Source: an uncultured Bacilli bacterium
GTDB taxonomy: Bacteria; Bacillota_I; Bacilli_A; RFN20; CAG-826
Direction: 5' to 3'
DNA length: 39,979 nucleotides
Assembly (NCBI GenBank): GCA_905235515.1
Contig: CAJOLV010000007.1
Location: 1 to 39,979, forward strand
Shown: in pieces, positions 19,123-36,993 of the stretch
How the letters are laid out: every line of letters starts with the position of its first letter
Numbering within the stretch: position 1 is the first letter of the stretch
The notes under the pieces: generated by a model
Seen by the model: the letters and a program-made list of their open reading frames with translations, nothing else
What the model was told of the DNA's origin: nothing
The model's database searches: none
Made by a program: the position numbers and the translations under genes

Positions 19123-19152
19123 AAATGTGCTGTTTATTAAAGGAGTGTGATT

Positions 19153-20817
19153 ATGGGCTCTAAAACTAGAGTTGCCAAGGCTTATACTGGCAACAAGGTT
19201 CCAAAGTTCACTAGATGGTTTTATCCATTCAGTGGCATTTTTCGTGATGCATGTTATGCATTAGTTGGTTCGTTCCTTCTTCAATACGCGATTACATCAG
19301 GTGTATTGAGTAGTGATTCCGCAGAATTTGCCAAGCAATACGGTGTTGTTACTATTGCGATGATGGTGGCGTTAGTATGGGATGGTATCAATGACCCAAT
19401 CATGGGATTTATTGTCGAAAAGGTTCATTTCAAATTAGGTAAATTCAAACCTTGGATTTTGATTGGCGCTATCGGTAATACTTTTGCGGTCATGCTTTTA
19501 TTCTTGGTTAGACCAGCAAATAGTTGGCTATTTGTTGTCCTTATGATTGTTTTCTATGTTTTATGGGATACATTCTTCACAATGAATGACATTGGTTATT
19601 GGGCAATGTTACCATCACTTTCAAGTGATGATAAAGAACGTGCCACCCTTACTTCCCGTGTCTCAATCTGTGCTGCTATTGGTGGTTTCTTAATGACTGG
19701 CGCTGCGACATTATTACCAACTATGTTCGGTGCTAGTACTGGTAAAGGTGCGGCGGCAGTTTATGGTGTCATGGCCATTGTTATTAGCTTATTATTCTTA
19801 GCATCTCAAGCCGCTGTTTTCTTCTTCTGCCAAGAGAAGGCCAGAGACTTAAAACAAGAAGAAGTTTCAGAAAAGTCCAGCCTCGCAGATCTATTTAAAA
19901 TTGTTGGCAAAGATTCACAAATCCGTGTTGTGGTTATTGCAATGTTCTTATATTACCTCGCTAGTGGTGTATTAACTGGAGGCATTGGTCTTAATTATTA
20001 TTATTTAGCGGTTGGATATGGTTCTTCTAGTGGTGGATTAGTCGTCACAGTTATTTCCATATTCTATGTCTTATCTATGATATCTTCACAAGCTCTATTC
20101 CCGATAATTGCCAAGAAAATGTCAAAACAAAAGATATTAACTATTGCAACAGTTATCGCAATGGCAGGAGCTTTAGGATTCTTATTAACATGCTTCCCAA
20201 TCTTTGGTGAAAAACCATTATCATTAATCCTTAATGGCGCCGCTCCAGCCTATGGTTCTGGCATGGATTTTGGATGGGCTTTTGGTGGATTAATGTTCTG
20301 TAACTATTTATTCCCATTCGCCTTCTTCTTCGGTGCTGGTTTAGTCTACATGGTTATCTTGGTAATGTTCCAAGACTCCATTGATAACCATGAATATCAA
20401 TTTGGTGAAAGAAAAGAATCTGTTATTTCTGCTTGGAGACCATTAGATGTTAAATTAGGCTCTGCTTTATTACGTGGGTTCCAATATTTAATTTTCTTAT
20501 CAGCTGGCGTTATGGCGACAGTTAATGGCATTTCCACTGCAGAAGGTAATTTAAATTCTGGTGAATATAGCTCAGAACAATTCGTCTCTAAGATTTCTGA
20601 ATTAATGGAAGGCGTTAATAGAACATCCTTAAATATTATTGGTTTATGGATCGCTATTATTCTTGTTGCTTGCTTTGTTGCCGTGTGGTGCCTCATCCAC
20701 TTTGGATACAAGATTAATGAAAAACGTCACCAAGAAATTGTGGCTGAACTCGAACAACGTCACGCTGCATCTGGTTTTAATACCGATGAAGTTGAACAAC
20801 CAATTCCTCAAGAATAG
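19153..20817 (+). CDS. GPH-family sugar:cation symporter (MelB-like)
   Basis: A 554-residue MFS transporter of the glycoside-pentoside-hexuronide family with about 12 helices. The diagnostic loop WDGINDPIMG after helix 2 and KLGKFKPWILIG are present, as is the central DDKERATLTS segment. It imports a glycoside, pentose or uronate with Na+ or H+. It is longer than the ~460-500 residues typical, with extra sequence in the second half and an acidic hydrophilic C-terminus. GGAG precedes ATG 19153 by seven bases; the nearer GTG at 19147 is too close to it. It is monocistronic between its own promoter and a terminator. No catabolic genes adjoin it, so its substrate is unknown. Whether it also serves the sulfoquinovose operon 4 kb downstream is open. 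Confidence 0.85.
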   Translation: MGSKTRVAKAYTGNKVPKFTRWFYPFSGIFRDACYALVGSFLLQYAITSGVLSSDSAEFAKQYGVVTIAMMVALVWDGINDPIMGFIVEKVHFKLGKFKPWILIGAIGNTFAVMLLFLVRPANSWLFVVLMIVFYVLWDTFFTMNDIGYWAMLPSLSSDDKERATLTSRVSICAAIGGFLMTGAATLLPTMFGASTGKGAAAVYGVMAIVISLLFLASQAAVFFFCQEKARDLKQEEVSEKSSLADLFKIVGKDSQIRVVVIAMFLYYLASGVLTGGIGLNYYYLAVGYGSSSGGLVVTVISIFYVLSMISSQALFPIIAKKMSKQKILTIATVIAMAGALGFLLTCFPIFGEKPLSLILNGAAPAYGSGMDFGWAFGGLMFCNYLFPFAFFFGAGLVYMVILVMFQDSIDNHEYQFGERKESVISAWRPLDVKLGSALLRGFQYLIFLSAGVMATVNGISTAEGNLNSGEYSSEQFVSKISELMEGVNRTSLNIIGLWIAIILVACFVAVWCLIHFGYKINEKRHQEIVAELEQRHAASGFNTDEVEQPIPQE

Positions 20818-21366: not shown

Positions 21367-22560
21367 ATGACATTAAAAGAATTACGCAAGAATTGCAAAT
21401 TAACACAAAAAGAAGCCGCTGATGTAGTGGGTATGCCTTTAAGAACATTTGTTTCTTATGAAAGCGATGAAAATAATGTTGATCAAATTAAATTAGAAGG
21501 TATCAAAGATAGATTGATGGAATTTATGGCGAAAGATACCTCTATCTTAAAAGATAAAGTTTTATTAATTACCGGTGGAACAGGCTCCTTTGGCCACGCC
21601 GTAGTGGACCGCTTTTTAAATACTGATATTAAAGAAATTAGAATCTTATCTAGAGATGAAAAGAAACAAGATGATATGCGTAAAGCCTACAACAATGAGA
21701 AATTAAAATTCTACATTGGTGATGTGCGTAACTTAGATAGCATCGTGGATGCTTTTAAAGGCGTTGACTATGTTTTTTCCGCGGCAGCGTTAAAGCAAGT
21801 TCCTTCTTGTGAATTTTATCCAATGGAAGCTGTGAGAACTAATGTGATTGGTTCTGATAATGTTATTACTGCTTGTGTTCGTAATGGTGTCAAAAAAGCC
21901 ATCTTTTTATCAACTGATAAAGCGGCCTATCCAATTAACGCAATGGGGATATCAAAAGCCTTAATGGAAAAGAATGTGATTGCAAGAAGCAGACAATTAT
22001 TACCAGGAGATACAGTTTTATGTTTAACAAGATATGGCAATGTTATGGCCTCTCGTGGTAGTGTCATCCCTCTTTTTCTAAATCAAATTCATGAAGGTAA
22101 ACCAATCACCATTACAAATCCTGATATGACAAGATTTATGATGACATTAGATGATGCGGTTGATTTAGTCTTATATGCTTTTGAGCATGGTGAACAAGGC
22201 GACTTATTCGTTCAAAAAGCACCTGCCGCAACAATTGAAACACTTGCTAAAGCAGTTATTAATTTAACTAATAGTAAAACTGGTATCACATATATTGGTA
22301 CAAGACATGGTGAAAAATTATATGAAACATTAGTGACTCAAGAAGAAATGCTCAAGAGTATTGATCTTGGTAACTTCTTCTGCATCAAAGCAGATAACCG
22401 TGATCTTAACTATGACAAATATTTCACCAAAGGTAATAAAAAACTCAATATTGGTGAAAGCTATACATCACATAATACTGGTCGATTAGATGTCAAAGGA
22501 ATGGAAGAGTTATTAAAGAAATTAGAACTCTTTGGTGGACCAGTTAGGCAACACGATTAG
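21367..22560 (+). CDS. capE: HTH domain fused to CapE/FnlA-type UDP-GlcNAc 4,6-dehydratase/5-epimerase
   Basis: A 397-residue protein with two parts. Residues 1-55 form an XRE-like helix-turn-helix (LKELRKNCKLTQKEAADVVG, then a PLRTFVSYE recognition helix). From about 61 it is an extended SDR enzyme of the FlaA1/CapE type: NAD-binding GGTGSFG (70-76), the STDKAAYPINAMGISKA active-site block and RYGNVMASRGSVIPLF. CapE/FnlA enzymes convert UDP-GlcNAc to UDP-2-acetamido-2,6-dideoxy-beta-L-arabino-4-hexulose, the first step to UDP-N-acetyl-L-fucosamine for capsule or wall polymers. The RBS (GAGGTG) precedes the HTH start and no stop separates the parts, so the fusion is real in this sequence. It heads the capE-F-G cassette. 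The HTH may give direct transcriptional feedback, which is an inference. Confidence 0.9.
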   Translation: MTLKELRKNCKLTQKEAADVVGMPLRTFVSYESDENNVDQIKLEGIKDRLMEFMAKDTSILKDKVLLITGGTGSFGHAVVDRFLNTDIKEIRILSRDEKKQDDMRKAYNNEKLKFYIGDVRNLDSIVDAFKGVDYVFSAAALKQVPSCEFYPMEAVRTNVIGSDNVITACVRNGVKKAIFLSTDKAAYPINAMGISKALMEKNVIARSRQLLPGDTVLCLTRYGNVMASRGSVIPLFLNQIHEGKPITITNPDMTRFMMTLDDAVDLVLYAFEHGEQGDLFVQKAPAATIETLAKAVINLTNSKTGITYIGTRHGEKLYETLVTQEEMLKSIDLGNFFCIKADNRDLNYDKYFTKGNKKLNIGESYTSHNTGRLDVKGMEELLKKLELFGGPVRQHD

Positions 22561-22565
22561 TGTTA

Positions 22566-22593
22566 TTAGAATTTAACTTTATACAATTATAAT
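22566..22593 (+). promoter_or_regulatory. Candidate promoter upstream of the antitoxin remnant
   Basis: TATAAT at 22588-22593 with a poor -35 (TTAGAA, 22566-22571). It could still drive capF and capG separately from the HTH-capE gene. Confidence 0.35.
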
Positions 22594-22632
22594 GATATAA
22601 ATGTATCAGAATAAATGTACAGGGAAATCAAG

Positions 22633-22829
22633 ATGGAAATTGAATCTTCAACATCATTAAGAAACCAATACAATGAAATTTCAGATTATTGCAAAACAAC
22701 AGGAGTACCTGTTTTTTAACTAAAAATGGTGAAGGAGATCTCGTTGTGATGTCTATTGAAGCTTTTGAAAAGAAAGAAAAACAATTATTGCTAAAAGAAA
22801 AGATTCATATGGATATTTTTGAATTATGA
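22633..22829 (+). pseudogene. Phd/YefM-type antitoxin with a one-base frameshift
   Basis: ATG 22633 (AGGGA upstream) opens MEIESSTSLRNQYNEISDYC and continues to GVPVF, then hits TAA. The T-run at 22712-22717 has six T. A seventh T would restore LTKNGEGDLVVMSIEAFEKK, the classic Phd/YefM continuation (x-VFITKNGxGDxVVMS). The frame then reads through to a TGA at 22827-22829. Phd/YefM proteins are DNA-binding antitoxins of RelE/YoeB or Doc toxins; no toxin gene follows. Its final stop overlaps the capF start (ATGA), so the remnant now sits inside the cassette as a leader-like element. A homopolymer sequencing error is possible and would make this an intact orphan antitoxin. Confidence 0.8.
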
Positions 22830-23923
22830 AAGTATTAGTAACGGGTAGTAATGGATTTATTGGTAAGCATATGTGTCTTCAATTGGAAAGACACAATTTT
22901 ACTGTTTTAAAATACGATTTAGATAACACCGACGAAGACTTAAAACAATTTATCAATGATGCTGATTTTATTGTCCATTTAGCGGGTATTAACCGCCCAT
23001 TAACAATCCAAGAATTTTATGATGGAAATAGCAATTTCACCGCAAAACTCGTGGATTTTGTGAAAAATTCAAATAAAAACACACCGATTATTATGTCTAG
23101 TTCGATTCAGGCTAGCTTAGATAATGATTATGGTAAATCTAAGAAAATGGGCGAGGATTATTTGTTAAATTCTGGCTTGCCAGTATATGTTTATAGATTA
23201 GCAAATGTCTTTGGCAAATGGTGTCGTCCAAACTATAATTCTGCAGTGGCGACATTCTGTTATAACATCGCTCATAATTTACCGATTCAAATTAGAGATA
23301 GAGAATATGTTGTGCACTTTAATTACATCGATGATATTTGTGAAGAATTTATCAACACCATTAATGGCGATTTAGATGGAAGAAAAGATATCTTATATGT
23401 TCAACCAACACATGATTGCTCATTAGGTAAACTTGCTGATTTACTCTATTACTTTAAAGGTGAAATTGAATCAGATAGACACTTACCGCTTATTCATAAT
23501 GAATTCGAATTGAAACTATTTAAGATGTTCTGTGATTATTTAAGTGATGATGGGTATTCATTTAATTACGCTTATGATAATCGTGGCAGTTTTGAAGAAT
23601 TATATAAATCTAAGAAGTGGGGCCAAATCAGTGACAATGTGGCCTTCCCAGGAATCACTAAGGGAGGACATTACCACACTTATAAAAAAGAAATATTCTA
23701 TACAGTGATTGGTCAATGCGAGATTAAGCAAAGAAATATTGATAATGATGATATGATTTGTGATGTGGTGGATGGTAAAAACTCGCGCCCTGTTGATATT
23801 AAAGTGGGGTATACCCATCAGATTAAAAATATCGGTCAAGAAAATAGTCATACAATTATGTGGATCTCAGAAATATATAATCCCGAGACTCACGATACAT
23901 ATAGAGAAGAAGTGGAGAAATAA
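22826..23923 (+). CDS. capF: CapF/FnlB-type bifunctional epimerase/reductase
   Basis: A 365-residue two-domain enzyme. The N-terminal SDR domain has the NADPH-binding GSNGFIG (7-13) and a YGKSK active-site block. The C-terminal cupin domain (about 250-365) has the metal-binding KGGHYHTYKKEIFYTVIG strand. In CapF the cupin epimerises C3 and the SDR domain reduces C4 of the CapE product, giving UDP-2-acetamido-2,6-dideoxy-L-talose. There is no RBS close to the ATG. The start overlaps the stop of the antitoxin remnant, so initiation may be by coupling or from a weak site. capG starts two bases after its stop. Confidence 0.92.
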   Translation: MKVLVTGSNGFIGKHMCLQLERHNFTVLKYDLDNTDEDLKQFINDADFIVHLAGINRPLTIQEFYDGNSNFTAKLVDFVKNSNKNTPIIMSSSIQASLDNDYGKSKKMGEDYLLNSGLPVYVYRLANVFGKWCRPNYNSAVATFCYNIAHNLPIQIRDREYVVHFNYIDDICEEFINTINGDLDGRKDILYVQPTHDCSLGKLADLLYYFKGEIESDRHLPLIHNEFELKLFKMFCDYLSDDGYSFNYAYDNRGSFEELYKSKKWGQISDNVAFPGITKGGHYHTYKKEIFYTVIGQCEIKQRNIDNDDMICDVVDGKNSRPVDIKVGYTHQIKNIGQENSHTIMWISEIYNPETHDTYREEVEK

Positions 23924-23925
23924 AA

Positions 23926-25074
23926 ATGAGTAAAAAAATTAGAGTTGTCACTATTATTGGAACTAGACCAGAAATCATTAGATTATCTGAAGTTATCAAA
24001 GCATTAGACAAGGATCATGATATTGAACATATTCTTATCCATACAGGGCAAAATTATGACTATGAGTTAAACCAAGTCTTCTTTGAAGAACTTGAATTAA
24101 GGGCTCCAGATTATTACCTCAATTGTGCGGGCGCTCATTTAGGTGAAACAATTGGTAACGCAATCTCTAAATCATATGATTTATTAAATCAATTAAAACC
24201 GGATGCAGTGCTTATTTTAGGTGACACAAACTCCGCTTTATGTGCGATATCCGCAAAAAGATTAAAACTTCCTATTTTCCATATGGAAGCTGGTAATAGA
24301 TGTGGTGATTGGAATGTTCCAGAAACAATCAACCGCAAAATTGTTGATCATATCTCTGATATCAATCTCCCATATACAGACCACGCCTACGCTAATTTGA
24401 TGAAAGAGGGCATTGAAAAACAATATACATTCGTGACTGGTTCACCAATGTTAGAAGTTTTAAATGCAAACAATGAGAAGATTGAAAGCTCAAAAGTCTT
24501 AGAAGAAATGGGACTAGAAAAAGGAAAGTATATTGTAGTCTCTTCTCATAGAGAAGAAAACATTGATATCAAAAAGAACTTTGATCAATTAATGCCTGCT
24601 ATTAATGAAATCGCAGAAAAATATCAATTACCAGTTATCTTCTCTACTCACCCAAGAACAAGAAAGAGATTAGAAGCTAATAACTTTAAGATGCATCCAC
24701 TAGTGAGAAATCTTAAACCATTAGGTTTTTTAGAATATGTCAAATTACAAGAAAACGCCTTTATTGTTTTATCTGATTCTGGCACATTAACTGAAGAATC
24801 ATGGATGAGACATTTCCCTGCTGTTTTAATTAGAACTAGCACTGAAAGACCAGAAGGTGTAGAAGCAGGAAGTATCGTAGTGTCTGGTATTGATAAGAAA
24901 GGAATTATGCTTGCTATCGATGCTGAATTAATGAGATATAAATTCGCAAAATGTCCAGAACATTATGATGTCGCTGATGTTTCTGATCGAGTTGTGAAAA
25001 TCATTAAAGAGAAAATCTCAGTTGTAAATAAAGAAATTTGGAAAAAGTATTCAACCCAAATCCAGAATGTGTGA
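23926..25074 (+). CDS. capG: CapG/FnlC-type UDP-N-acetyl sugar 2-epimerase
   Basis: A 382-residue non-hydrolysing UDP-GlcNAc 2-epimerase family protein. In this cassette it should convert UDP-2-acetamido-2,6-dideoxy-L-talose to UDP-N-acetyl-L-fucosamine. Family motifs: GTRPEIIRLSEVIKAL at the N-terminus, LGDTNSALCAISAKRL, FHMEAGNRCGDWNVPETINRK, SSHREENID, and the uridine-binding SDSGTLTEESWM. Related family members make ManNAc from GlcNAc; the neighbouring capE and capF favour the FucNAc branch. It is the last gene of the cassette. No downstream glycosyltransferases or polymerase genes are visible, so the polymer itself must be encoded elsewhere. Confidence 0.93.
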   Translation: MSKKIRVVTIIGTRPEIIRLSEVIKALDKDHDIEHILIHTGQNYDYELNQVFFEELELRAPDYYLNCAGAHLGETIGNAISKSYDLLNQLKPDAVLILGDTNSALCAISAKRLKLPIFHMEAGNRCGDWNVPETINRKIVDHISDINLPYTDHAYANLMKEGIEKQYTFVTGSPMLEVLNANNEKIESSKVLEEMGLEKGKYIVVSSHREENIDIKKNFDQLMPAINEIAEKYQLPVIFSTHPRTRKRLEANNFKMHPLVRNLKPLGFLEYVKLQENAFIVLSDSGTLTEESWMRHFPAVLIRTSTERPEGVEAGSIVVSGIDKKGIMLAIDAELMRYKFAKCPEHYDVADVSDRVVKIIKEKISVVNKEIWKKYSTQIQNV

Positions 25075-25268: not shown

Positions 25269-26711
25269 ATGTCTACCAATTTATCTAATACCTCTGGTAT
25301 TGCTATGAAAGATAAGATTGGCTACGCCCTAGGTGACGTTGGTTCGTTACTTGTTTTTGGCTTAGTTAATACTTTCTTACAAATTTTCTACACTGATAAA
25401 CTCGGTATTACTCCAGTAGTGGTCATGTTAATCATGATTATTGCCCGTGTATGGGATGCGATTAATGACCCAATTTGGGGAAGAGTTGTTGATAGTGTCA
25501 ACAGCAAGCCAAGAAGAAGATATAAAAAGTGGTTACTTTACTTATGCTTACCATTAGCCTTCTCATCAATTTTAATGTTTATTGATGTTAATGGCTGGTT
25601 CCATTTAAGCAACGCTGCTTGTGTCGCATACGCGATTGTTTCCTATATTCTTTTTGGAATGTTATATACAGGCACAAATATTCCTTATGGCTCAATGTCT
25701 TCTGTTATCACTTCTGATGATAAAGAAAGAAATGCCTTATCAGTTTTCCGTAGTGTTGGCTCCACAGTTGGTGGCTTTGGCCCAATGATTGTAAACTTCT
25801 TTGTTTGGGATAAAGTCGATGGTGTCAGTGTCCTAAATTCCACAAAGTTAATTATTGGTGTTTCCATCATGGCGGTTCTCTCTGTTGTATGTGCTATTTT
25901 GTGCTATAAGATGTCAGAAGAAAGAGTGGTTGTACCACCTCGTAGTAAAGAGCAAAAACATAGAGGTGAAACTCTAAGAGTGTTAAAAAACCTCGTAAAA
26001 ACCCGCTCTTTTGTCATTATTTCTATCGTTGGTATGTTGTTCTTGGCTGCTCAAATGTTCCAAACAACATACAATATGTATGTCTTTAAAGTCTTCTTTA
26101 ATAATCCGGGTATGGCCACTTTATCAACAGTGTGTCAATACTTACCAGTAGCGGTTGTGATGTTCTTCTCTGGTAAATTAGTTCGTAAATTTGGTCGCAA
26201 AGAAATCTGCGCAATTGGTTTATTATTCACTGCTGTTTGCTTTGGTATTCTTGCCGCAATTCCAATTGAGGCTTTCAATAGAGGTATCTTAATGTGGATC
26301 TTCTTAGCCTTCAGCTTATTAGCGGGTTTAGGCAACGCCTTTATATTCTTGATGATCTGGGCTTTAGCCAACGACTCTATTGATGATTATTTTGTTAAAA
26401 CAAAATCTCACGATGAAGCAACAGCCTATTCCATCTTCACATTTATGAGAAAGTTAGGTCAAACTATCGCCGCTATTATCGTTAATGTTTCTTTAATCGC
26501 GATTGGCTATGGTCAAACTACTGATTGGGCGCCAACAGAAGCGGCTGCTACATCAATGTATTATCAATCTATTATCATTCCAGCTGGATTATCTTTATTA
26601 ATGTTTGTTTTATTAATGTTTGCTTACCCATTATCTAAGAAGAGAGTGGAAGCTTTACAAGGTGAGAAAGCTGCTGTTTTAGAAGAAAAACCAGCGGAAG
26701 TTCAAGAATAA
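25269..26711 (+). CDS. GPH-family transporter, probable sulfoquinovoside importer (sulfo-TAL operon)
   Basis: A 480-residue MFS transporter of the GPH family with about 12 helices. WDAINDPIWGRVVD after helix 2 and SDDKERNALS in the middle loop are family marks. The closing segment is acidic and hydrophilic. As first gene of the seven-gene operon, with the glycosidase starting one base after its stop, it is the likely importer of sulfoquinovose or its glycosides; this substrate is inferred from context. AAGGGGG lies about seven bases before the ATG. It is clearly separate from the other GPH gene at 19153: the two differ in length and in most residues. Confidence 0.88.
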   Translation: MSTNLSNTSGIAMKDKIGYALGDVGSLLVFGLVNTFLQIFYTDKLGITPVVVMLIMIIARVWDAINDPIWGRVVDSVNSKPRRRYKKWLLYLCLPLAFSSILMFIDVNGWFHLSNAACVAYAIVSYILFGMLYTGTNIPYGSMSSVITSDDKERNALSVFRSVGSTVGGFGPMIVNFFVWDKVDGVSVLNSTKLIIGVSIMAVLSVVCAILCYKMSEERVVVPPRSKEQKHRGETLRVLKNLVKTRSFVIISIVGMLFLAAQMFQTTYNMYVFKVFFNNPGMATLSTVCQYLPVAVVMFFSGKLVRKFGRKEICAIGLLFTAVCFGILAAIPIEAFNRGILMWIFLAFSLLAGLGNAFIFLMIWALANDSIDDYFVKTKSHDEATAYSIFTFMRKLGQTIAAIIVNVSLIAIGYGQTTDWAPTEAAATSMYYQSIIIPAGLSLLMFVLLMFAYPLSKKRVEALQGEKAAVLEEKPAEVQE

Positions 26712-26712
26712 T

Positions 26713-28695
26713 ATGAACGCTAAAGAATTAAGAGAATATTTCATTTCTCAATTAACGAGTGGTGATTGTGTTTTTAAAGTTGCCCAAGGCAAGGCTAAAT
26801 ATAAAATGTCTCGTGGCTCTTTTAAGACTAAAAGTCATATTCGTAATGAACATACTTTGAAATATAAAACAACAACTGGAAATAGATATATCTTTTCCGA
26901 TGGAAAAGTAGAAGGGGAATTAATCTTAGATGATAATCCCGATATCGTCAAATTCCATTTCCATGTTGACACTGGTTATAATCGTTTCTATTTAAAATTT
27001 AAAACTTTTAAAGATGAACACATCTATGGTTGTGGTGAACAATTCACAACCCTTGATTTAAAGGGTAAATCTGTGCCAATCTGGGTTAGCGAACATCAAC
27101 AAGTGATGAAAATCGCGATAAAGTTATTAAGATGGAAAATCAAAGGTAAACCAGAACCAGATCGCGTCAGTAAATATAAGAATCATCAAACATATTGTTC
27201 TTTCCCAATCTTTATTTCTAGTCAGAACTACGGATTTTATGTTCATGATGATAGTTATGGCATAATGGTCTTTACAAAAGATGGAGTAGAATTAAGGTTT
27301 AGAAACATCCCTCAATCTGTCAGTATGATTTGTGCGGATAATCAAAAAGAATTAATTGAAAAATTCGCTCATTTATTAGGTATTGCTCCACAAGTTCCTG
27401 ATTGGGTCAATGATGGTGCGATTCTTGCTATGCAAGGTGGCACAGAAGTGTTAAGACAAAAATATCAAGAAGCCAAAGAAAAAGGTATTAAAATCGCTGG
27501 TATCTGGGCGCAAGATTGGTGTGGTCATGTCGTCACATCATTTGGCTATCAAGTCTATTGGAACTGGAAAGTTGATGATGAATTATACAAAGGCTTAAAA
27601 GAATTTATTGATGAACTCCATAAAGATGGAGTGAAATTTTTAGGCTATATTAATACTTTCTTGAAGAAAGACGCTCCATTATATAACGAAGCAAAAGCTA
27701 TGAATATCTTAGTAAGAAAGACTAATGGAGAAGTCTATCATATTAAATCAACAACATTTGATGCTGGTATTGTGGATTTAACTAATCCAACTGGTTATGA
27801 ATGGTATAAAAATATTATCAAACAAAATATGATTGAATTCGGTCTTGATGGTTGGATGGCTGATTTTGGCGAATATTTACCAACCGACTCTATCGTTTAT
27901 GGTGGACCAGCGGAGAGACTACACAACAAATGGCCAACATTCTGGGCAAAATGTTGTTATGATGCGATTCATGAATCGAATAAGCAAAAAGATATCTTTA
28001 TCTTTTCTAGGGCAGCTTTTGGTCATACACCTCAATACACAAATAGTATATGGAATGGTGATAACCATGTTGACTGGTCTGATGAATATGGTATTGGTTC
28101 AGTTATTCCTGCCGCTTTATCTTTAGCTAGTTGTGGAGTCGGAGTCACTCATAGTGATATCGGTGGTTACACAACTGTAATGTTTATGAAACGTAATGCG
28201 GAATTATTTAAAAGATGGTCAGAAATGAATATCTTTACTCCTATCTACCGCACTCACGAAGGTAATAGACCAAATGATAATGTGCAATTTAATCATCCAG
28301 ATGTCGTTGAAGAATTCGCTGAGAATTCCCATATCTATTATGAATTAAAAGAATACCGTTTAGCGGTGCAAAAGGAATATCAAGAAAAAGGCACTCCAAT
28401 GATTAGACCTCTCTTCACTCATTATGAGGATGAGGAAAGTAGAACCAATAAAAGAGAATTCCTATTTGGTGAAGATATCTTAGTCTCCCCAGTTTTAAGA
28501 GAAAAAGAATTTAAGCATAAGATTTATCTTCCAGAAGGAAAGTGGATTCAATTCTTTACTGGTAGAGAATTTGAAGGTGGACAATTCTTGATTGATTCTC
28601 CATTAGGTTTACCAATCGCTTTCTATAAGAAAGAAAGTAAATTTAAAACATTATTTGAAAACATTTCTAAGAAACACCTTAAGGAGGGTGAATAA
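26713..28695 (+). CDS. GH31 glycosidase of the sulfoquinovosidase type
   Basis: A 660-residue intracellular GH31 enzyme expected to release sulfoquinovose from its glycosides. Nucleophile Asp384 lies in WMADFGEYLPTD and acid/base Asp454 in VDWSDE, both in blocks typical of YihQ-like sulfoquinovosidases, as are HSDIGGYTT and RTHEGNRPNDN. Of the five YihQ residues linked to sulfonate recognition (Gln, Gln, Arg301, Trp304, Tyr508), four are kept: Gln241, Gln267, Trp283 and Tyr486. The Arg301 position is Gln280, with spacing identical. The call as sulfoquinovosidase therefore depends on the operon. It could be a sub-clade with altered binding or an alpha-glucosidase/xylosidase. It starts one base after the transporter stop. 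Confidence 0.85.
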   Translation: MNAKELREYFISQLTSGDCVFKVAQGKAKYKMSRGSFKTKSHIRNEHTLKYKTTTGNRYIFSDGKVEGELILDDNPDIVKFHFHVDTGYNRFYLKFKTFKDEHIYGCGEQFTTLDLKGKSVPIWVSEHQQVMKIAIKLLRWKIKGKPEPDRVSKYKNHQTYCSFPIFISSQNYGFYVHDDSYGIMVFTKDGVELRFRNIPQSVSMICADNQKELIEKFAHLLGIAPQVPDWVNDGAILAMQGGTEVLRQKYQEAKEKGIKIAGIWAQDWCGHVVTSFGYQVYWNWKVDDELYKGLKEFIDELHKDGVKFLGYINTFLKKDAPLYNEAKAMNILVRKTNGEVYHIKSTTFDAGIVDLTNPTGYEWYKNIIKQNMIEFGLDGWMADFGEYLPTDSIVYGGPAERLHNKWPTFWAKCCYDAIHESNKQKDIFIFSRAAFGHTPQYTNSIWNGDNHVDWSDEYGIGSVIPAALSLASCGVGVTHSDIGGYTTVMFMKRNAELFKRWSEMNIFTPIYRTHEGNRPNDNVQFNHPDVVEEFAENSHIYYELKEYRLAVQKEYQEKGTPMIRPLFTHYEDEESRTNKREFLFGEDILVSPVLREKEFKHKIYLPEGKWIQFFTGREFEGGQFLIDSPLGLPIAFYKKESKFKTLFENISKKHLKEGE

Positions 28696-28697
28696 AT

Positions 28698-29378
28698 ATG
28701 AAGTTTTTTATCGACTCAGCAAAATTAGATGAAATTGATAAGGCCTATCGCTGTTATGGCATTGACGGCATTACCACAAACCCACGCCATATCCAAAATA
28801 GTGGTAAAACATTTATTGAAGCTATTACAGATATCGCGAATTGGTTAAAAGAAAACAAATTAGAAGGAATGGATAAATTCCCTGTTTCAGTAGAAATTAA
28901 TCCACATTTGGATAATGCGGATGACATGGTTAAAGAAGCAAAGAAAATATCTAAATTATCTCCTAATTTTGTCATTAAGATCCCTTGCAATTTAGAGGGC
29001 TTAAAAGCAGCGAAAAGATTAGAAGAAGAAGGAATTAGAACTAATGTCACATTAGTGTTCTCCCCATCTCAAGCTATCCAAGCCGCTAGAATTGGTGCGA
29101 AATTTGTCTCTCCATTTGTTGGTTGGAAAGAAGCCAATGGTGAAGATGCTAGAGAATATATGGAAATTATTAGCAATATCTATCACGTTAAAGGATATAA
29201 AACAGAAATTATTGGCGCAGCGATTAGAACAGGTCGCGAGATTGCCTTAATGACAGAATTAGATATCGATATCATCACTTGTGGTTTAGCAGTGTTAGAA
29301 GATGCATTTATTCATCCATACACCAAACAAGGATTAGAAATCTTCTGTAATGCTTGGGATAACACTAAAGGCAATTAA
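28698..29378 (+). CDS. sftT: Transaldolase/fructose-6-phosphate aldolase family, probable sulfofructose transaldolase
   Basis: A 226-residue class I aldolase of the small transaldolase (FSA/TalC-like) family. The Schiff-base Lys94 is in NFVIKIPCN. KFFIDSA at the N-terminus and GITTNP are also family marks. In the sulfo-TAL pathway this enzyme splits 6-deoxy-6-sulfofructose, releasing sulfolactaldehyde and moving the dihydroxyacetone unit to glyceraldehyde-3-phosphate to give fructose-6-phosphate. AAGGAGG lies about eight bases before the ATG and the glycosidase stop is two bases upstream. The role as SftT is inferred from the neighbours; ordinary fructose-6-phosphate aldolase is the alternative. 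Confidence 0.85.
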   Translation: MKFFIDSAKLDEIDKAYRCYGIDGITTNPRHIQNSGKTFIEAITDIANWLKENKLEGMDKFPVSVEINPHLDNADDMVKEAKKISKLSPNFVIKIPCNLEGLKAAKRLEEEGIRTNVTLVFSPSQAIQAARIGAKFVSPFVGWKEANGEDAREYMEIISNIYHVKGYKTEIIGAAIRTGREIALMTELDIDIITCGLAVLEDAFIHPYTKQGLEIFCNAWDNTKGN

Positions 29379-29379
29379 T

Positions 29380-30213
29380 ATGAAAGTCGCATTTATCGGT
29401 TTAGGCATTATGGGCTTGCCAATGGCCACTAATGTTAGTAAACAATATGATTTAATTGGTTTTGACATTGTTAAAAAGGAAACAAATTTTCTTTTTGCTT
29501 CATCTTATCAAGAATGTGCTGAATTCGCTGATGTGATTATCTCAATGGTGCCAAAGAATGAGCACTTTAAAGCATTAGTGAATGAAATGTTACCATATCT
29601 AAAAGCAGGACAAATATGGATTGATATGTCGACAATTTCTCCTGCTACTGCCTTAGAGATGAAGTCACTCTTATTAAAGAAGGGTGTCAAATTATGTGAC
29701 GCTCCAGTTGTGAAGAGTCAACCAGCCGCTATTAAAGGCGAATTAGGTATTTATTTTGGTGGAGATAAAGATTTATTTGAACATGTAAAACCAATCTTAT
29801 CTTGTATGGGCAAAAACATTATCTATATGGGTGAGAACGGTCGTGGATTACAAATGAAAATCATTCATAACGCCTTAGTGGGACAAATCCAAAATGGTGT
29901 TAATGAGATTCTTGGATTAGCAGAAAAACTCGGTCTAGATTTAACAGATGTTGTGACCGCTTTAGGCTATGGAGGCGCGCAATGTTTCTATCTAGATACC
30001 AAAGCAAATAACATTTTGAATCACACTTATCCAACGGCATTTTCTGTTGAAAATATGAATAAAGATGTCCATTTTGCAGGGGAAATTGCCGATTCTATTA
30101 ATGCCGATGTTCCATCATTACGTAATGTGATTAAAGTATATGAAAAAGCAATGGAAGAAGGTTTAGGGAAAAATGATTTCTCTAATACTTATGAAGTTGT
30201 GAATGAAAAATAG
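29380..30213 (+). CDS. HIBADH-family dehydrogenase, probable sulfolactaldehyde reductase
   Basis: A 277-residue beta-hydroxyacid dehydrogenase-family enzyme. The Rossmann motif is GLGIMG at the start, and the catalytic Lys160 is in QMKIIHNALVG. In sulfo-TAL clusters of fermenters such an enzyme reduces sulfolactaldehyde to 2,3-dihydroxypropane-1-sulfonate, recycling NADH. The sulfonate-binding set of E. coli YihU (Arg in VGRTS, Asn and Ser after the Lys) is not conserved: here PVVKSQ (Lys112, Ser113) and MKIIHN-x-x-V. ATG 29380 begins one base after the transaldolase stop, with AAAGG nine bases upstream; the further upstream start overlaps the transaldolase and is not conserved. Confidence 0.82.
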   Translation: MKVAFIGLGIMGLPMATNVSKQYDLIGFDIVKKETNFLFASSYQECAEFADVIISMVPKNEHFKALVNEMLPYLKAGQIWIDMSTISPATALEMKSLLLKKGVKLCDAPVVKSQPAAIKGELGIYFGGDKDLFEHVKPILSCMGKNIIYMGENGRGLQMKIIHNALVGQIQNGVNEILGLAEKLGLDLTDVVTALGYGGAQCFYLDTKANNILNHTYPTAFSVENMNKDVHFAGEIADSINADVPSLRNVIKVYEKAMEEGLGKNDFSNTYEVVNEK

Positions 30214-30228
30214 AAAGGATTAAACCTT

Positions 30229-31560
30229 ATGAAAAAAGCAAAGATTGGCTTAGTGTGTTTGGTTAGAAAAACCTTCGATTTTGAAACAGCTTATCAACTC
30301 TATCTAGAGAGAACTAAAGAAGTAATGAAAGATACGTCTGTTGATTGGTTTAATTATCCAAATATGGTTATTACTCCAGAAGAAGCTACAGAAGCTAGTA
30401 ATTATTTCTTAGACAATAAAGTTGATGCGATAGTGGTAGTCAGTGCGACATTCCATTTAGGCCATCTCGCCTTAATTATTAATGACTTGTGTCGTAAGCC
30501 GTTGCTTTTATGGGGATTTGATGAACTTCCATATGATGGTGGCAAGATTAGACTTAACGCCGTCTGTGGTGTTAATTTAAATGCCTCTAATTTATATAAA
30601 GGTGGTAATGACACATATATTGTTCATGTTGGCAATGAAATTGATCAAGACTTTATCAAGGCGATTAAAATGAAAGTTGCGATTGAAGGATGCAAAGTTG
30701 GTTTAATCGGTTATCGCGCGGATGGATTCTTTAATGTCGGTGTTGATGAATTACATTTATATAAAGAAATTGGTACATTAGTGACCCATTATGAATTAAA
30801 TGATTTATTCTCTGGAGACGCTAGTGGAGAAGAAATTAATCAAGAAAGAGAAAATCTATTGAAGATTTTTGATGCCTCCAAATTAAATGATTATCAAATC
30901 AATCAAGTCGCCAAACTCGTTGTTTTAGCGGATAAATTCACTAAACGTGAAGCCTTAGACGTAATCGCGATTAGATGCTGGCCAGAATTTGCGAAAAACT
31001 ATGGTGTCTCACCATGTGCGATGATGTCCGTATTACAATCTCGTGGCTTATTATTTGCTTGTGAAGGCGATGTTGAAGCAGCAATTAGTATGGTGGCGGT
31101 GAGGGCCGCTGGAGAAATAACTCCTTTTATGGCGGATCTCTCTCAAGTTAACTATCAAGAAAATTTCGCCTTATTATGGCATGATGGTGTCGCTCCATGC
31201 AATTTGTGGGATGGCGTTTGTAAACGCTCATTAGAGACATATTTTGCGGGTGGTAAAGGTGTCACCGCTGATTTTGTTCTTAAAAGTGGCAAAATGTCTA
31301 TTTTAAGAATCGATACTGCGAGAGGTAAAACAAGGCTATTCTATGAAGAGGGTGAAGCCATTAATATGAAAAAAGAACTCTCTGGAACATACGCTAAAGT
31401 GATTTTTGATCATCATATTAAAGATGTCATTGATACAGTAGTATATACCGGTGTTGCTCATCATGTAATAATGGGCTATGTCCAATTTAAAAAAGCAATG
31501 CGCTACCTAGCGAGAATTAAAGGTTGGGAAGTTATCGATGTATCAAAAGATAGAATCTAA
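30229..31560 (+). CDS. sftI: FucI-like isomerase, probable sulfoquinovose isomerase
   Basis: A 443-residue protein of the L-fucose/L-arabinose isomerase superfamily (FucI C-terminal-like domain in the second half). Characteristic segments are GLVCLVRKTFDFE at the N-terminus, GYRADGFFNVGVDELHLYKEIG in the middle and RCWPEF. Such enzymes interconvert aldoses and ketoses with a divalent metal. In sulfo-TAL clusters this family member converts sulfoquinovose to 6-deoxy-6-sulfofructose. AAAGGA precedes the ATG. Its last 23 bases overlap the DUF4867 gene. Metal ligands cannot be named with certainty from sequence alone. Confidence 0.85.
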   Translation: MKKAKIGLVCLVRKTFDFETAYQLYLERTKEVMKDTSVDWFNYPNMVITPEEATEASNYFLDNKVDAIVVVSATFHLGHLALIINDLCRKPLLLWGFDELPYDGGKIRLNAVCGVNLNASNLYKGGNDTYIVHVGNEIDQDFIKAIKMKVAIEGCKVGLIGYRADGFFNVGVDELHLYKEIGTLVTHYELNDLFSGDASGEEINQERENLLKIFDASKLNDYQINQVAKLVVLADKFTKREALDVIAIRCWPEFAKNYGVSPCAMMSVLQSRGLLFACEGDVEAAISMVAVRAAGEITPFMADLSQVNYQENFALLWHDGVAPCNLWDGVCKRSLETYFAGGKGVTADFVLKSGKMSILRIDTARGKTRLFYEEGEAINMKKELSGTYAKVIFDHHIKDVIDTVVYTGVAHHVIMGYVQFKKAMRYLARIKGWEVIDVSKDRI

Positions 31561-32149
31561 AGAATTCTTAAAATATGGATATATCTTAGAAGGCGATTAT
31601 TCTGATATCGTTAATTTTCTTTTAGAAAAATCACCTATGCCAGAAAAGAACAATCTCTATGTTCGCGATGATATCAATATGAGAAATCTTCCATCTGTCT
31701 CTAAGATTAAAGAAGAAGTCTTTGGCTTAGTGGATATTGAAACTGGTTATTGTAATGGCTATAACTCAAAATTAAATTGTTTAGAATATCATGCTTCTTT
31801 TGAAGTAGATGTCGCAGCGACAGATTTAGTGCTTTTATTAGCCGCTTTAGATGATGTTCACGAAGGTGTAATTGATTCTAAAGATGTGAAAGCTTTTTAT
31901 GTTAAAAAAGGAACTTGTGTAGTGCTAAACCCATTCACATTCCATTTTTCTCCATGCAAATTATCTGATGATGGATTTAAATGTGCAATTATTTTACCTA
32001 ATGGCACGAATCGTGATTTAAGCATCACTCCAAAAGATAAAAAATTATGGAAAGAAAATAAATGGTTATACGCTCATAAAGAGAGTAACCAAGCATCATT
32101 AGGTGCATATATTGGTATTAAAGGGGAAAATACCGAAGTCAAATATTAA
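31538..32149 (+). CDS. sftX: DUF4867 family protein (SftX-like)
   Basis: A 203-residue protein of the DUF4867 family, recognised by the blocks GYCNGYNSKLNCLEYHASFE, AATDLVLLLA, VKAFYVKKGT and AYIGIKGEN. DUF4867 is a characteristic but functionally unassigned member of sulfo-TAL gene clusters. The fold looks cupin-like (beta-rich with KGTCVVLNPFTFHFSPC), so a role in sugar binding or mutarotation is possible; that is inference. It overlaps the isomerase by 23 bases with a GGGAAG site before the ATG, which indicates coupled, matched expression of the two proteins. Confidence 0.85.
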   Translation: MYQKIESKEFLKYGYILEGDYSDIVNFLLEKSPMPEKNNLYVRDDINMRNLPSVSKIKEEVFGLVDIETGYCNGYNSKLNCLEYHASFEVDVAATDLVLLLAALDDVHEGVIDSKDVKAFYVKKGTCVVLNPFTFHFSPCKLSDDGFKCAIILPNGTNRDLSITPKDKKLWKENKWLYAHKESNQASLGAYIGIKGENTEVKY

Positions 32150-32157
32150 ATATTTTT

Positions 32158-32877
32158 ATGACAATTCTAGAAATACTATTTTTAATAGTCATTTTCGTTA
32201 GCAATATTGTTCAAGGCATTACAGGATTTGCTGGTACAGTTATCGCAATGCCGTTTTCCATTAAATTAGTGGGTATTGATGCGGCAAGACTGATATTAAA
32301 TTTAGTCGCTATTGCAATATCTCTTTTAGTCGTTATTTTTAATTTTAAAAAGATTAGATTTAAAACATTATTACTCCTACTTGTCTTTGTGGGGATTGGA
32401 TTTGGTTTAGGTTATTTAATCCACTTTATGAATCTTAATGGCGAACATGCATTAAAAGCTTATGGTGCGGTGATATGTATGATCGCTATTATCTATTTCT
32501 TCTTTGATGTTGATGGTAATAAGATTCCAAAATGGATTCATCCAATTGTTTTAATCATAGCTGGAATGATGCATTTCCTTTTTGTTAGTGGTGGTCCGTT
32601 AGTGGTTATATTCGCTGTGACAATGATTAAAGACAAAAATGAGTTTAGAGCGACATTATCAATGATGTGGCTGATATTAAATTCCATCATTCTGGGTATA
32701 GGAATAGGGGATGGTTTTTTCACCCCTCATCTATTGCTCATCGGTGGAATCGCAATTGCAATAAGCTTGTTATCATTATTCATTGCTAAATTGTTATTAA
32801 AGAAAATTGACTCTCGACAATTCTTAAAAATCGCTTATGTACTCCTATTTATTTCTGGAGTTTTTGCGGTTTTATAA
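32158..32877 (+). CDS. TauE/SafE-family sulfonate exporter
   Basis: A 239-residue membrane protein with about eight helices, of the TauE/SafE family that exports sulfite and organosulfonates. VQGITGFAGTVIAMPF near the N-terminus and FVSGGPLVVIF in the second half are the duplicated family motifs. As the last gene of the operon it is the probable exporter of the sulfonate end product, 2,3-dihydroxypropane-1-sulfonate. No good RBS precedes the ATG, nine bases after the DUF4867 stop. The substrate is inferred from the operon. Confidence 0.88.
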   Translation: MTILEILFLIVIFVSNIVQGITGFAGTVIAMPFSIKLVGIDAARLILNLVAIAISLLVVIFNFKKIRFKTLLLLLVFVGIGFGLGYLIHFMNLNGEHALKAYGAVICMIAIIYFFFDVDGNKIPKWIHPIVLIIAGMMHFLFVSGGPLVVIFAVTMIKDKNEFRATLSMMWLILNSIILGIGIGDGFFTPHLLLIGGIAIAISLLSLFIAKLLLKKIDSRQFLKIAYVLLFISGVFAVL

Positions 32878-32942: not shown

Positions 32943-33635
32943 TTATTTAGTAGCGATATATTGATACAAAGAATAGCAATTTGACTCTTTATTTATCTTT
33001 ACTGGAGTGTAATCGCTATCTAATGTCACATTTAATTCTTGATGATAAATAAGAGAAACCTCTTTATTGGTTTCGTTATACATTGTGGATGTCACATAAG
33101 TCTTTGTCCCTATATTCATAGAAACAGTCTTATGTTTGATGTTGTCATTAATATATTTTGTGGAAAAGTTTTCTGGCACAGCTTGTAAATTATATTTATC
33201 AAATATTTTTGTCATTGATGTATTTGGGTCATTTTCTAATAAATAACTAACCGCCTCTTCAAGGGTTGTTCCAACACTGCTGACATCAATTGAATAGTCA
33301 TAAATACTAGTGTCGTTTTTACCCACTAAATAAAATTTGTTAGTGTCATCAAAATGGAAAGATATTAATTCAGTTGCCGCATCAAAGTGATTAACTATTG
33401 TTTCATCATTTAAAATTTTTAATAAACGATTATATTTAGTGATGTTTTCTGTATTATCAATAACTTCTTCATCTTTAGGTGTATTATCACTTGGAGTTTG
33501 ATTTTGAGATCTTAAGCCCATCCAATAGAAAAAGAAAATAATTCCGATAATAGTAATCACTAAAAGTGATAGATAAGCCACAATAGTGATAATTTTCTTA
33601 ATATTATGAGATTTTTTGTCTTCGATTACTGGCAT
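32943..33635 (-). CDS. Single-pass membrane protein of unknown function
   Basis: A 230-residue protein with a short cytoplasmic N-terminus, one membrane helix at about 17-40 (ITIVAYLSLLVITIIGIIFFF) and an outside domain of about 185 residues. The first part outside is a low-complexity Asn/Thr/Glu/Asp linker; the rest is a beta-rich domain without recognised family. It diverges from the GntR gene with 127 bases between them, so the two may share control. GAGG lies about 15 bases before the ATG, a rather long spacing. Function unknown. Confidence 0.65.
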   Translation of the reverse strand: MPVIEDKKSHNIKKIITIVAYLSLLVITIIGIIFFFYWMGLRSQNQTPSDNTPKDEEVIDNTENITKYNRLLKILNDETIVNHFDAATELISFHFDDTNKFYLVGKNDTSIYDYSIDVSSVGTTLEEAVSYLLENDPNTSMTKIFDKYNLQAVPENFSTKYINDNIKHKTVSMNIGTKTYVTSTMYNETNKEVSLIYHQELNVTLDSDYTPVKINKESNCYSLYQYIATK

Positions 33636-34134: not shown

Positions 34135-34174
34135 AAGTAGATTGATACTTAAAAAAAGGAGGAAACAAGAATAT

Positions 34175-36988
34175 ATGAAAAAACTAGCACTCATAACAAT
34201 GATTCCAATGATGATTCTTTGTTCTTGCTCTTCAATCAAGAAAGAAGATAACGATTATAGTGATGAGGAGTCTCGTCAACTATTAGAGGAAGCTTTACAG
34301 GAAATCCCCATCGAAGTATTGCCTTATGAAGAAGAACTAAAACCGTTAGAACTACTTGATAATATCGAACAAGAAAGCACTGAATCACTAGTGAAGTTCC
34401 ATGAAGGTGATAATGATCAATATGTTTATGTCGTTGGCACTGATTATATTGAAGCAGAAGCACCTTATTCTTCTAGTGGTAGTTATGATCCAACTAGTAC
34501 AGATGTCACTTTAGTGGATGAAAATGATAATGAAATCCCAATGACATTAATTAATTCTTCAAATGGTAAGGCGACATTTAAAGTTCCAGTTTCTACTTTT
34601 GAAGAAAAGCATGGTTATCACGTTAAATTAAATAGTGATGTAGTCAAGTTCTGCTCTAAGGAACCCACTATTAGACAAATTACTTACTATTCTTTAGATA
34701 TCAATGATAGCAATAGAGCTAGAGATGTTGTTAAAAACACGGGAATTAAATCATTTGATATTAATAAAGTTCAATATTTCGATGTCGACGCTTTATCAGC
34801 TTATTTCATCTTTGATGAATATTTAGATATCGATCCAAGCAGACAAGATGATACAGGATTAAAATTTAGAATCGCGGATTTAACAAAAGACCAAGATGAT
34901 GAAGAAACAGTTTATGGTAAATTAATATCTTGTCAAAAGAACCCTAATGGTGCGGGATATCTTGTGAGATATGAAGCCTGTAAAGGTTCAGACATTTATA
35001 GCACATTAAATGTCAATGATTCTGTTCCTGTTAATGAAAATACTTGCTCTAATATCACCATCTTTGATGATGAAGAGACAATTGAAAATCAATTAGGCAA
35101 AGCATTCTTAGCTCACCCAGATATCGTTACCGCGATGAGTGGTATGATGAATTATTTTGAAGTAACACCTGATGATTATTTACAAGCTTCTAAATATGAA
35201 TGGGCCTCTCGTCTAAATATCAAATTCACTGCTGGATTTGATGGCAACACTGATACATTTAACTGGGGATTTGATGCTTCATTAAACTTCACTCCAAAGG
35301 ATGATATCGCTGTTACATTACATGTTAAATATCATCAAACAATTAGATATACAGTCTCTGCCTCATTATCTATTGAAACTTGGTTATTTATTCCTACTGG
35401 TGTCAATTACCGATTGGAAGTGAAAGAAGATGACAGTAAAGAAGTAGAAGTTGGTATTAATATTTCCACTAACTTAGCTCCATATGATGAAGAAGCCGTT
35501 CAACAAGGTATTGAAAACGATTTAATCGATGCCTTTACCAAGAATAAAGATGTGAAATCTAAATTTATGGGTGATCCATCAACAACTACTGCTGATGGCA
35601 AGAGCTATCCATTATTAAGATTTGACTGTTATTACTTCTTCCCATTAGATATTAGATTTGAAATTGACTTCTATTGGAAATTACAATTATCCATCGAAGC
35701 AACAGTGAAATATTCTAGTCACACTCAAAGAGTGGATGTCTCATTATCTAACAATAAAGGTTGCGACCCTCATTCTGAAACCGCTGCCATAAGTGATAAG
35801 AGTGTCACCATTAACTTTATGGGTTCATTCCACGCGGAAATCGGCTTAAGAGCCTCATTAGGTTTAGGTATAATCGGCTTATATAAATTCTTCCACGCTG
35901 AAGTATTTATCACCGCTTACGGTGCAGTTGATGCGCAAGGATTTATATTAGTAGGTGTTGCCTGGGGCGATAATAGAGAAGCTTCTATTACTGGCACAAT
36001 GGGTGGCAAATTTGAAGTCTCCGTTGGTGTCAAATGGGGTGTCGATATTAACTTACTCTTTGGTGGCTTTAATAAAGAGTGGCCAATTGTTAAAGCAATC
36101 TTACTTGGCTTTGCTCATGATTCCGCTATCAATAATTTTATAGAAAGCGAATCAACAATTGAAATTACTGATCAAGATTATGGTCATTATATCAATTTAG
36201 ATGAATATCATGTTTTAGGCGCTGCGACATTCGATGCGAAAAACTTTGGCTCTGCCTTCTTAGATATGAAACATGATGACGCCGCCGATACTCGTTATGG
36301 TGCGTGGTTATCACCAGCAAAAGCCAAATATTTCACCTTTGAATTAACAAAAGGTAGTGAATACATTGATTTCAATGACTACAAGATTAACATCAAGAGT
36401 GTTTACGCTATTGAAGAATTTGAGGCCGAAATTAAAGTGACAGTGAATCCAAGCCTTACAGTCACTGGTGATGTAAAACATCAAACATTAGAAAAGACCA
36501 TTAAGATTCACTTTACAAACAATTTAAAGAAACAGATTAATATTATTAATCTCGATGGTGAAGTCGAATCTATCGGTTCCTATGTCATCGGTATCGGCGC
36601 TAAATTACCAGTGCCAAACGCTCCAAGATATCAGAAATTTGCTGGTTGGAGAGAAGTTGGTACAGAAAACATTATTCCTTATGATGAGGATGACCCAACA
36701 ACTGGCATCTATACACCACAAGAAACTGGTGAAATAACATTCGAATATGTCTTTGAAGATTATTATACTTGGACAGTTATTTGGTTAGATGGTTTTGGCA
36801 ATGTCATTAAGACAGAACAAGTCTTCTATAATGAATCTGCGATTGAGCCAACTGCTGAAGAACGTGACCAATATATGATCTCTTATGACCCAGATTGCTA
36901 TTATGAATTTATTGGCTACGACACTGATTATACCTGTATTACAGGTAACACAGTCATACGTGCCATGTATGAATATAAAAGGAAGTAA
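34175..36988 (+). CDS. Large surface lipoprotein
   Basis: A 937-residue lipoprotein. The signal peptide MKKLALITMIPMMILCSC has a likely lipobox LCSC (Cys18). An acidic linker follows (residues about 22-60), then a long beta-rich region with no recognised family. The C-terminal 130 residues resemble the InlB B-repeat/Flg_new type: GAKLPVPNAPRYQKFAGWRE and a second unit with WLDGFGNVIKTEQVFY. AAAGGAGG lies 12 bases before ATG 34175. Codons and composition match the neighbours. It probably acts at the cell surface, binding or structuring the envelope; specific function unknown. The last stop overlaps the start region of the next lipoprotein (TAATG). Confidence 0.75.
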   Translation: MKKLALITMIPMMILCSCSSIKKEDNDYSDEESRQLLEEALQEIPIEVLPYEEELKPLELLDNIEQESTESLVKFHEGDNDQYVYVVGTDYIEAEAPYSSSGSYDPTSTDVTLVDENDNEIPMTLINSSNGKATFKVPVSTFEEKHGYHVKLNSDVVKFCSKEPTIRQITYYSLDINDSNRARDVVKNTGIKSFDINKVQYFDVDALSAYFIFDEYLDIDPSRQDDTGLKFRIADLTKDQDDEETVYGKLISCQKNPNGAGYLVRYEACKGSDIYSTLNVNDSVPVNENTCSNITIFDDEETIENQLGKAFLAHPDIVTAMSGMMNYFEVTPDDYLQASKYEWASRLNIKFTAGFDGNTDTFNWGFDASLNFTPKDDIAVTLHVKYHQTIRYTVSASLSIETWLFIPTGVNYRLEVKEDDSKEVEVGINISTNLAPYDEEAVQQGIENDLIDAFTKNKDVKSKFMGDPSTTTADGKSYPLLRFDCYYFFPLDIRFEIDFYWKLQLSIEATVKYSSHTQRVDVSLSNNKGCDPHSETAAISDKSVTINFMGSFHAEIGLRASLGLGIIGLYKFFHAEVFITAYGAVDAQGFILVGVAWGDNREASITGTMGGKFEVSVGVKWGVDINLLFGGFNKEWPIVKAILLGFAHDSAINNFIESESTIEITDQDYGHYINLDEYHVLGAATFDAKNFGSAFLDMKHDDAADTRYGAWLSPAKAKYFTFELTKGSEYIDFNDYKINIKSVYAIEEFEAEIKVTVNPSLTVTGDVKHQTLEKTIKIHFTNNLKKQINIINLDGEVESIGSYVIGIGAKLPVPNAPRYQKFAGWREVGTENIIPYDEDDPTTGIYTPQETGEITFEYVFEDYYTWTVIWLDGFGNVIKTEQVFYNESAIEPTAEERDQYMISYDPDCYYEFIGYDTDYTCITGNTVIRAMYEYKRK

Positions 36989-36993
36989 TGATT

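Follow-up and report, generated by a model that had tools for sequence, protein, structure and literature searches.

The YihQ-like GH31 glycosidase encoded in the window (the whole stretch of DNA that was analysed, 39,979 nucleotides) carries a glutamine where GH31 sulfoquinovosidases have an arginine that is regarded as their signature of sulfonate recognition. It shares this residue, together with several linked changes, with a large group of homologues from gut and rumen bacteria that we refer to as the Gln class. Sulfoquinovose (SQ) is a plant sulfo-sugar, and yihQ serves as a marker for the breakdown of sulfolipids. We consider it probable that the protein is a YihQ-lineage α-glycosidase that supplies the adjacent sulfo-transaldolase (sulfo-TAL) pathway by cleaving a sulfoquinovoside taken up by the cell, and that it holds the sulfonate without the usual Arg (Table 1). 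Either this key Arg is dispensable and there is a second solution to sulfonate binding, or many "sulfoquinovosidases" do something else; for many of the genes currently counted under that name, the encoded enzyme may have a mode of substrate binding that has not been described.

Table 1. Features of the GH31 gene and its operon, in window coordinates
Feature	Position	Strand	Basis
GPH/MFS_2 symporter, probable glycoside importer	25269..26711	+	Domain matches, neighbourhood
YihQ-like GH31 glycosidase, Gln class (QQQWY), 660 aa	26713..28695	+	PRK10426/NF007746 score, AF2, fold matches
Rewritten N-loop V125..H128..K137, start of helix 131-144 in model (Arg-type: T-S-E-(P/Q)-G-V-G-R)	27085..27123	+	Alignment, AF2
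Gln280, codon CAA, at YihQ Arg301 position	27550..27552	+	Alignment, codon reading
Thr347-Thr348 in place of Gly368-Glu369 (invariant in Arg-type enzymes)	27751..27756	+	Alignment
Asp384, catalytic nucleophile (YihQ Asp405)	27862..27864	+	Alignment
Asp450, acid/base (YihQ Asp472)	28060..28062	+	Alignment
His452, two residues after acid/base Asp450 (Arg-type: Ser/Asn/Cys)	28066..28068	+	Alignment
Sulfofructose transaldolase (SF-TAL)	28698..29378	+	BmSF-TAL 8bc3, 270 bits; signature positions
3-Sulfolactaldehyde (SLA) reductase-like protein (HIBADH family), Lys at YihU Arg123	29350..30213	+	Profile, alignment
Divergent sulfoquinovose-isomerase-like protein	30229..31560	+	SftI model, 186 bits (cut-off 700)
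DUF4867 (SftX-like) protein	31538..32149	+	Domain match
TauE/SafE-family exporter, probable sulfonate exporter	32158..32877	+	Domain match

The GH31 protein scored 681 bits against the NCBIfam model PRK10426/NF007746 (cut-off 553), and its closest relatives of solved structure are all GH31 sulfoquinovosidases: YihQ (5AED, E 3e-153), BmSQase (8R56), E. rectale SftG (6PNR), and the A. tumefaciens enzyme (5OHY). The AF2 model (mean pLDDT 93.8) has the GH31 fold with both catalytic Asp residues, and Foldseek ranked GH31 sulfoquinovosidases at the top (TM 0.89-0.91), with 37-39% identity in the fold alignments to those of the QQRWY type, followed by other GH31 enzymes at 0.73. Confidence in the model is lowest for the block around Gln280 (pLDDT 68); in a control model of an Arg-type protein, the segment matching the N-loop had a pLDDT of about 50.

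Positions 27511-27561 correspond exactly to codons 267-283 of this gene, over which HMMER aligned the protein with YihQ (5AED) collinearly and without gaps (GIWAQDWCGHVVTSFGYQVYWNWK against GIWAQDWSGIRMTSFGKRVMWNWK). This bears out the original prediction, which had proposed a YihQ-like spacing, the equivalence of Gln267, and a Gln at the Arg301 position, as well as the retention of Gln241, Trp283, and Tyr486: the window residues Q241/Q267/Q280/W283/D384/D450/Y486 map to Q262/Q288/R301/W304/D405/D472/Y508 of YihQ. Thus, Trp304 and Tyr508 of the YihQ sulfonate site are kept, whereas the sulfonate Arg of the QQRWY and KERWY types is absent. In all four GH31 sulfoquinovosidases with solved structures, the equivalent of YihQ Arg301 presumably grips the sulfonate of sulfoquinovose, and no Gln-class member is among these four. 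Four further observations went beyond that prediction, namely that Gln is common, that a second loss (Gly-Glu to Thr-Thr) accompanies it, that the N-loop is rewritten, and that a His lies close to the acid/base.

Compared with the QQRWY enzymes (YihQ 5AED/5OHT, SftG 6PNR, and BmSQase 8R56), the window protein has in common the fold, the catalytic Asp residues, the equivalents of Q262/Q288/W304/Y508, and a location in SQ clusters, but differs in Arg301 (Gln), Gly368-Glu369 (Thr-Thr), the GVGR N-loop (replaced), and Ser/Asn474 (His); among the sampled Arg-type proteins, Gly368-Glu369 and the GVGR loop show little or no variation. With the KERWY type (A. tumefaciens 5OHS/5OHY), it has the fold, catalytic Asp, Trp, and Tyr in common. 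However, that type, also seen in rhizobial relatives, keeps Arg and Gly-Glu and has Lys/Glu for Gln/Gln, whereas the window protein has Gln/Gln and no Arg. Being sulfoquinovosidase-like by context and fold and lacking the Arg of the defining motif, the protein is best regarded as a putative member of this activity class.

Across the 140 distinct YihQ-like proteins collected (171 sequences), these positions fall into two states with no mixed signatures. R301, G368-E369, and S/N/C474 occurred in all 40 Arg-class proteins, in which the N-loop motif (Table 1) includes an R157 that is 100% conserved, and Arg is invariant in the QQRWY and KERWY subtypes alike. In the Gln class, 99 of 100 proteins had Q, T-(T/S/V), and H/L (the remaining one is unaligned at one site), with His at the 474 equivalent except for Leu in two, and with an N-loop of the form V-(A/S)-E-H-Q...K, in which His128 and Lys137 are each conserved at 97%. 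When the signature columns were left out of the tree (a quick method with SH-aLRT support and no bootstrap), a single R/Q change separated the two classes (SH-aLRT 98). Proteins from Pseudothermotoga (L113) and Spirochaetota (L114) have Gln and Thr-Thr together with the Arg-type GVGR loop, and are without His128, Lys137, and His452; therefore, the Gln swap is separable from this latter set. They branch beside the Arg class and, when an outgroup of other GH31 enzymes was included, below everything else (support 92 and 81, with very long outgroup branches), a weakly supported rooting from which Gln may be the older state. These intermediates, to which L239 and L238 also belong, have Leu at position 474 and are key to the order of changes. 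Lys137, which lies on helix 131-144 of the AF2 model, was considered as a replacement for the Arg and rejected as a firm claim: Arg-type proteins have Arg157/Lys159 in the same loop, and the basal Gln proteins are without Lys137.

The original prediction had also called for a survey of how frequent Gln is, and it proved to be common. The 140-protein set came from an alignment-based scan of GTDB genomes and further genome searches and divides into 100 Gln and 40 Arg proteins, a ratio biased towards Gln because the window protein was the search seed. An even draw of 299 genomes from the family of Pseudobutyrivibrio (Lachnospiraceae) yielded 24 YihQ-like genes (13 Gln, 11 Arg) in 21 genomes, three of which carry both types. 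Gln-class proteins were found in Lachnospiraceae, Oscillospiraceae, Erysipelotrichaceae, Acholeplasmatales, Treponemataceae, and others, and the four relatives sampled from a plasmid collection were all of the Arg type. Every homologue found in the family and order of the window organism has Gln, and the state is conserved at about 40% overall identity with fixed co-varying residues; sequencing error, drift, or single-genome noise was therefore rejected as its origin.

The gene lies among SQ-degrading enzymes. An SF transaldolase, an SLA reductase, an SQ isomerase, a DUF4867 protein of the SftX-like family (PMC11968277), and an exporter are all present in one operon, which corresponds to a sulfo-TAL pathway, although its isomerase is of a divergent kind that scores under the SftI cut-off. 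This fucose-isomerase-like protein has relatives of 51-53% identity in three other loci (L086, L087, and L114) and no PDB match at 0.01; many other Gln loci have SftI-type isomerases scoring 390-416 bits. Searches of the window's genome (92% complete) found no second YihQ-like gene, the other PF01055 match looking like a GH36-type protein in our reading, and no GH188 sulfoquinovosidase, the sole Gfo/Idh/MocA protein being closer to generic dehydrogenases than to 8QC2.

In most genomes, the Gln-class gene is likewise the only YihQ-like gene and sits in a sulfo-TAL operon, with some members in sulfo-transketolase (sulfo-TK) and possibly sulfo-EMP clusters. A transaldolase was present in 65 of the 89 distinct Gln loci with context and a transketolase in 4, one locus having both. 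The W138/K139/E140 set of BmSF-TAL, which differs from that of ordinary transaldolase, was matched by 68 of the 69 transaldolases that adjoin Gln genes, the other being gapped, and by 9 of 9 that adjoin Arg genes. At the YihU Arg123 position, every one of the 66 reductases from Gln loci has Lys, as do those of five Arg-type loci, while the other 13 Arg-type loci have Arg, as in YihU. A sulfo-TK cluster surrounds the Gln gene of L114 (isomerase, transketolase halves, RpiB, Fe-ADH, TauE, and DUF4867), a PfkB kinase adjoins that of L116 with no aldolase seen in the locus, and in Acholeplasmatales the neighbours are an aldehyde dehydrogenase and a two-subunit CoA ligase, which we take to be the sulfoacetate branch of sulfo-TK. 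In 11 Gln loci, no sulfoglycolysis gene occurred in the stretch covered, and most have a GPH symporter alone beside the gene; in two of these genomes (G753 and G756), no convincing SQ isomerase was found.

Both classes occur in one cluster in four genomes (G748, L236+L237; G376, L062+L063; G934, L228; G750, L233+L234). In these mixed sulfo-TK/TAL clusters, the Arg gene stands by ABC-importer or pathway genes and the Gln gene, in most, by a GPH symporter, with a single pathway set between them. The same division is seen over the non-enterobacterial loci, where Gln genes adjoin GPH symporters in 54 cases and an ABC importer in 1, and Arg genes adjoin ABC importers in 12 and a GPH symporter in 1 (counts from related genomes and so not independent). 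This importer split and the shared pathway genes suggest that the two classes act on different imported compounds, probably two sulfoquinovosides brought in by the ABC and GPH importers, and supply a single pathway with SQ.

Read from sequence, the Gln class is best interpreted as a third GH31 motif class (QQQWY), SQ-releasing, with a predicted sulfonate site rebuilt without the Arg/Glu pair. The window protein would be a cytosolic retaining α-glycosidase that hydrolyzes an imported sulfoquinovoside, most simply sulfoquinovosyl glycerol, through D384/D450, as expected from family membership, and the free sulfoquinovose released would enter the adjacent sulfo-transaldolase pathway. The sulfonate may be held by neutral or rearranged donors, i.e., the Gln280 amide, the Trp283 indole N-H, the Thr347/348 hydroxyls, and possibly Lys137 or His452. 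Arg301 and Glu369 would have been exchanged together for neutral residues, and their joint loss looks like a charge-neutral swap of a putative pair. A more far-reaching version is tentative, and we regard it as possible rather than likely. In it, the Gln proteins would form a third functional class among GH31 sulfoquinovosidases, with Arg-free sulfonate binding that is possibly ancestral; where both classes co-occur, they would have a symporter of their own and act on a second natural sulfoquinovoside.

The original prediction had left two options, that this clade recognizes the sulfonate differently or that it acts on another α-glycoside. Different recognition is the better supported by the sulfo-TAL and sulfo-TK contexts, the SF-TAL signature, and the pathway shared with Arg genes. 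The other option, an unsulfonated or differently substituted α-glycoside (e.g., an α-glucoside) as the substrate of an enzyme accessory to these clusters, is less likely because the operon transaldolase keeps the SF-transaldolase signature, and we consider it quite improbable. It draws on the absence of two otherwise invariant residues, the Arg and the Glu, on the 11 Gln loci without sulfoglycolysis genes nearby, mostly with just a GPH symporter, and on the genomes in which a full Arg-type gene co-occurs, so that a second sulfoquinovosidase would be unneeded. These 11 loci also weigh against our main reading, as does the Arg itself, which is invariant in all Arg-type sequences and so presumably important for sulfonate binding. 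However, the Gln gene is the only YihQ-like gene of the sulfo-TAL operon in most genomes, the QDW..W..Y set that it keeps is the SQase-specific one and not that of other GH31 enzymes, and the partner enzymes have SF and SLA signatures. In addition, the Gln gene is common to clusters with differing downstream routes, which share only SQ and SF (PMC11968277).

The remaining alternatives concern what is cleaved and whether the enzyme is active. The enzyme may cleave SQ glycosides and be novel in its aglycone: His128/Lys137/His452 would make up a new +1 site that accommodates a second natural sulfoquinovoside, and the change to Gln280 would be a secondary adjustment; we think this unlikely. The position of His452 two residues from the acid/base, the rewritten N-loop, and the different importers of Arg and Gln genes within one cluster would fit such a site, but the basal L113/L114 proteins have Gln and Thr-Thr without these three residues, and we know of no second abundant sulfoquinovoside in the rumen. 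A different C6-acidic sugar (another sulfo-hexose or a sulfate ester) is a very improbable substrate: the anion site is changed while the gluco-type catalytic residues are kept, and the window isomerase is divergent; however, Gln genes also occur with SftI-type isomerases, and one isomerase is common to the Arg and Gln genes of L236/L237. Least probable of all is a decayed or inactive sulfoquinovosidase, which would account for the loss of one otherwise invariant binding residue but not for intact catalytic residues and a Gln and signature that stay fixed in several phyla and at about 40% identity.

In the literature searched, GH31 sulfoquinovosidases are treated as one group, and neither a description of the Gln class nor a measured activity for any of its members was found. 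The GH188 family offers a precedent for clades with an altered sulfonate site in unusual SQ clusters, but it is an unrelated NAD-dependent family in which the changed residue binds via its backbone and the Arg/Lys stay (PMC11465081). In a cow-rumen yihQ survey (2026), all variants were treated as YihQ, and 64% (YIHQa) and 47.5% (YIHQb) of them grouped on a long branch with BK011_07555, one of two yihQ copies in Mariniplasma MZ-QX, the other being BK011_09290 (PMC13219744). In a genome with two copies (G430, a single contig of 2.16 Mb), the Gln copy lies at 1,523,870 and the Arg copy at 1,875,009, and the ratio of these positions (0.813) equals that of the locus tags 07555 and 09290. Because of this match, the rumen long branch is probably the Gln class, counted there as the dominant yihQ group. 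The Gln clade, to which about half of the YihQ-like genes of the even Lachnospiraceae sample belong, is probably also the largest rumen group. The Arg codon should fall outside the amplicon of that survey (primers 1201F/1526R), if numbered on a yihQ gene, and His452 should fall within it; existing amplicon data could therefore be split into both classes.

Several neighbouring genes of the window were also noted. UDP-sugar genes (FnlA-like, WbcJ-like, and a WecB-like epimerase; 21367-25074) lie directly upstream of the operon and suggest capsule or cell-surface sugar synthesis, and a second GPH/MFS_2 transporter (19147-20817) shares about 36% identity with the operon symporter. Opposite the operon end, an ORF of 230 aa (32943-33635, minus strand) has no Pfam match. 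Further along, two large adjoining ORFs (34142-39219) encode 948 aa, with no Pfam match, and 743 aa, with BspA leucine-rich and Listeria-Bacteroides repeats.
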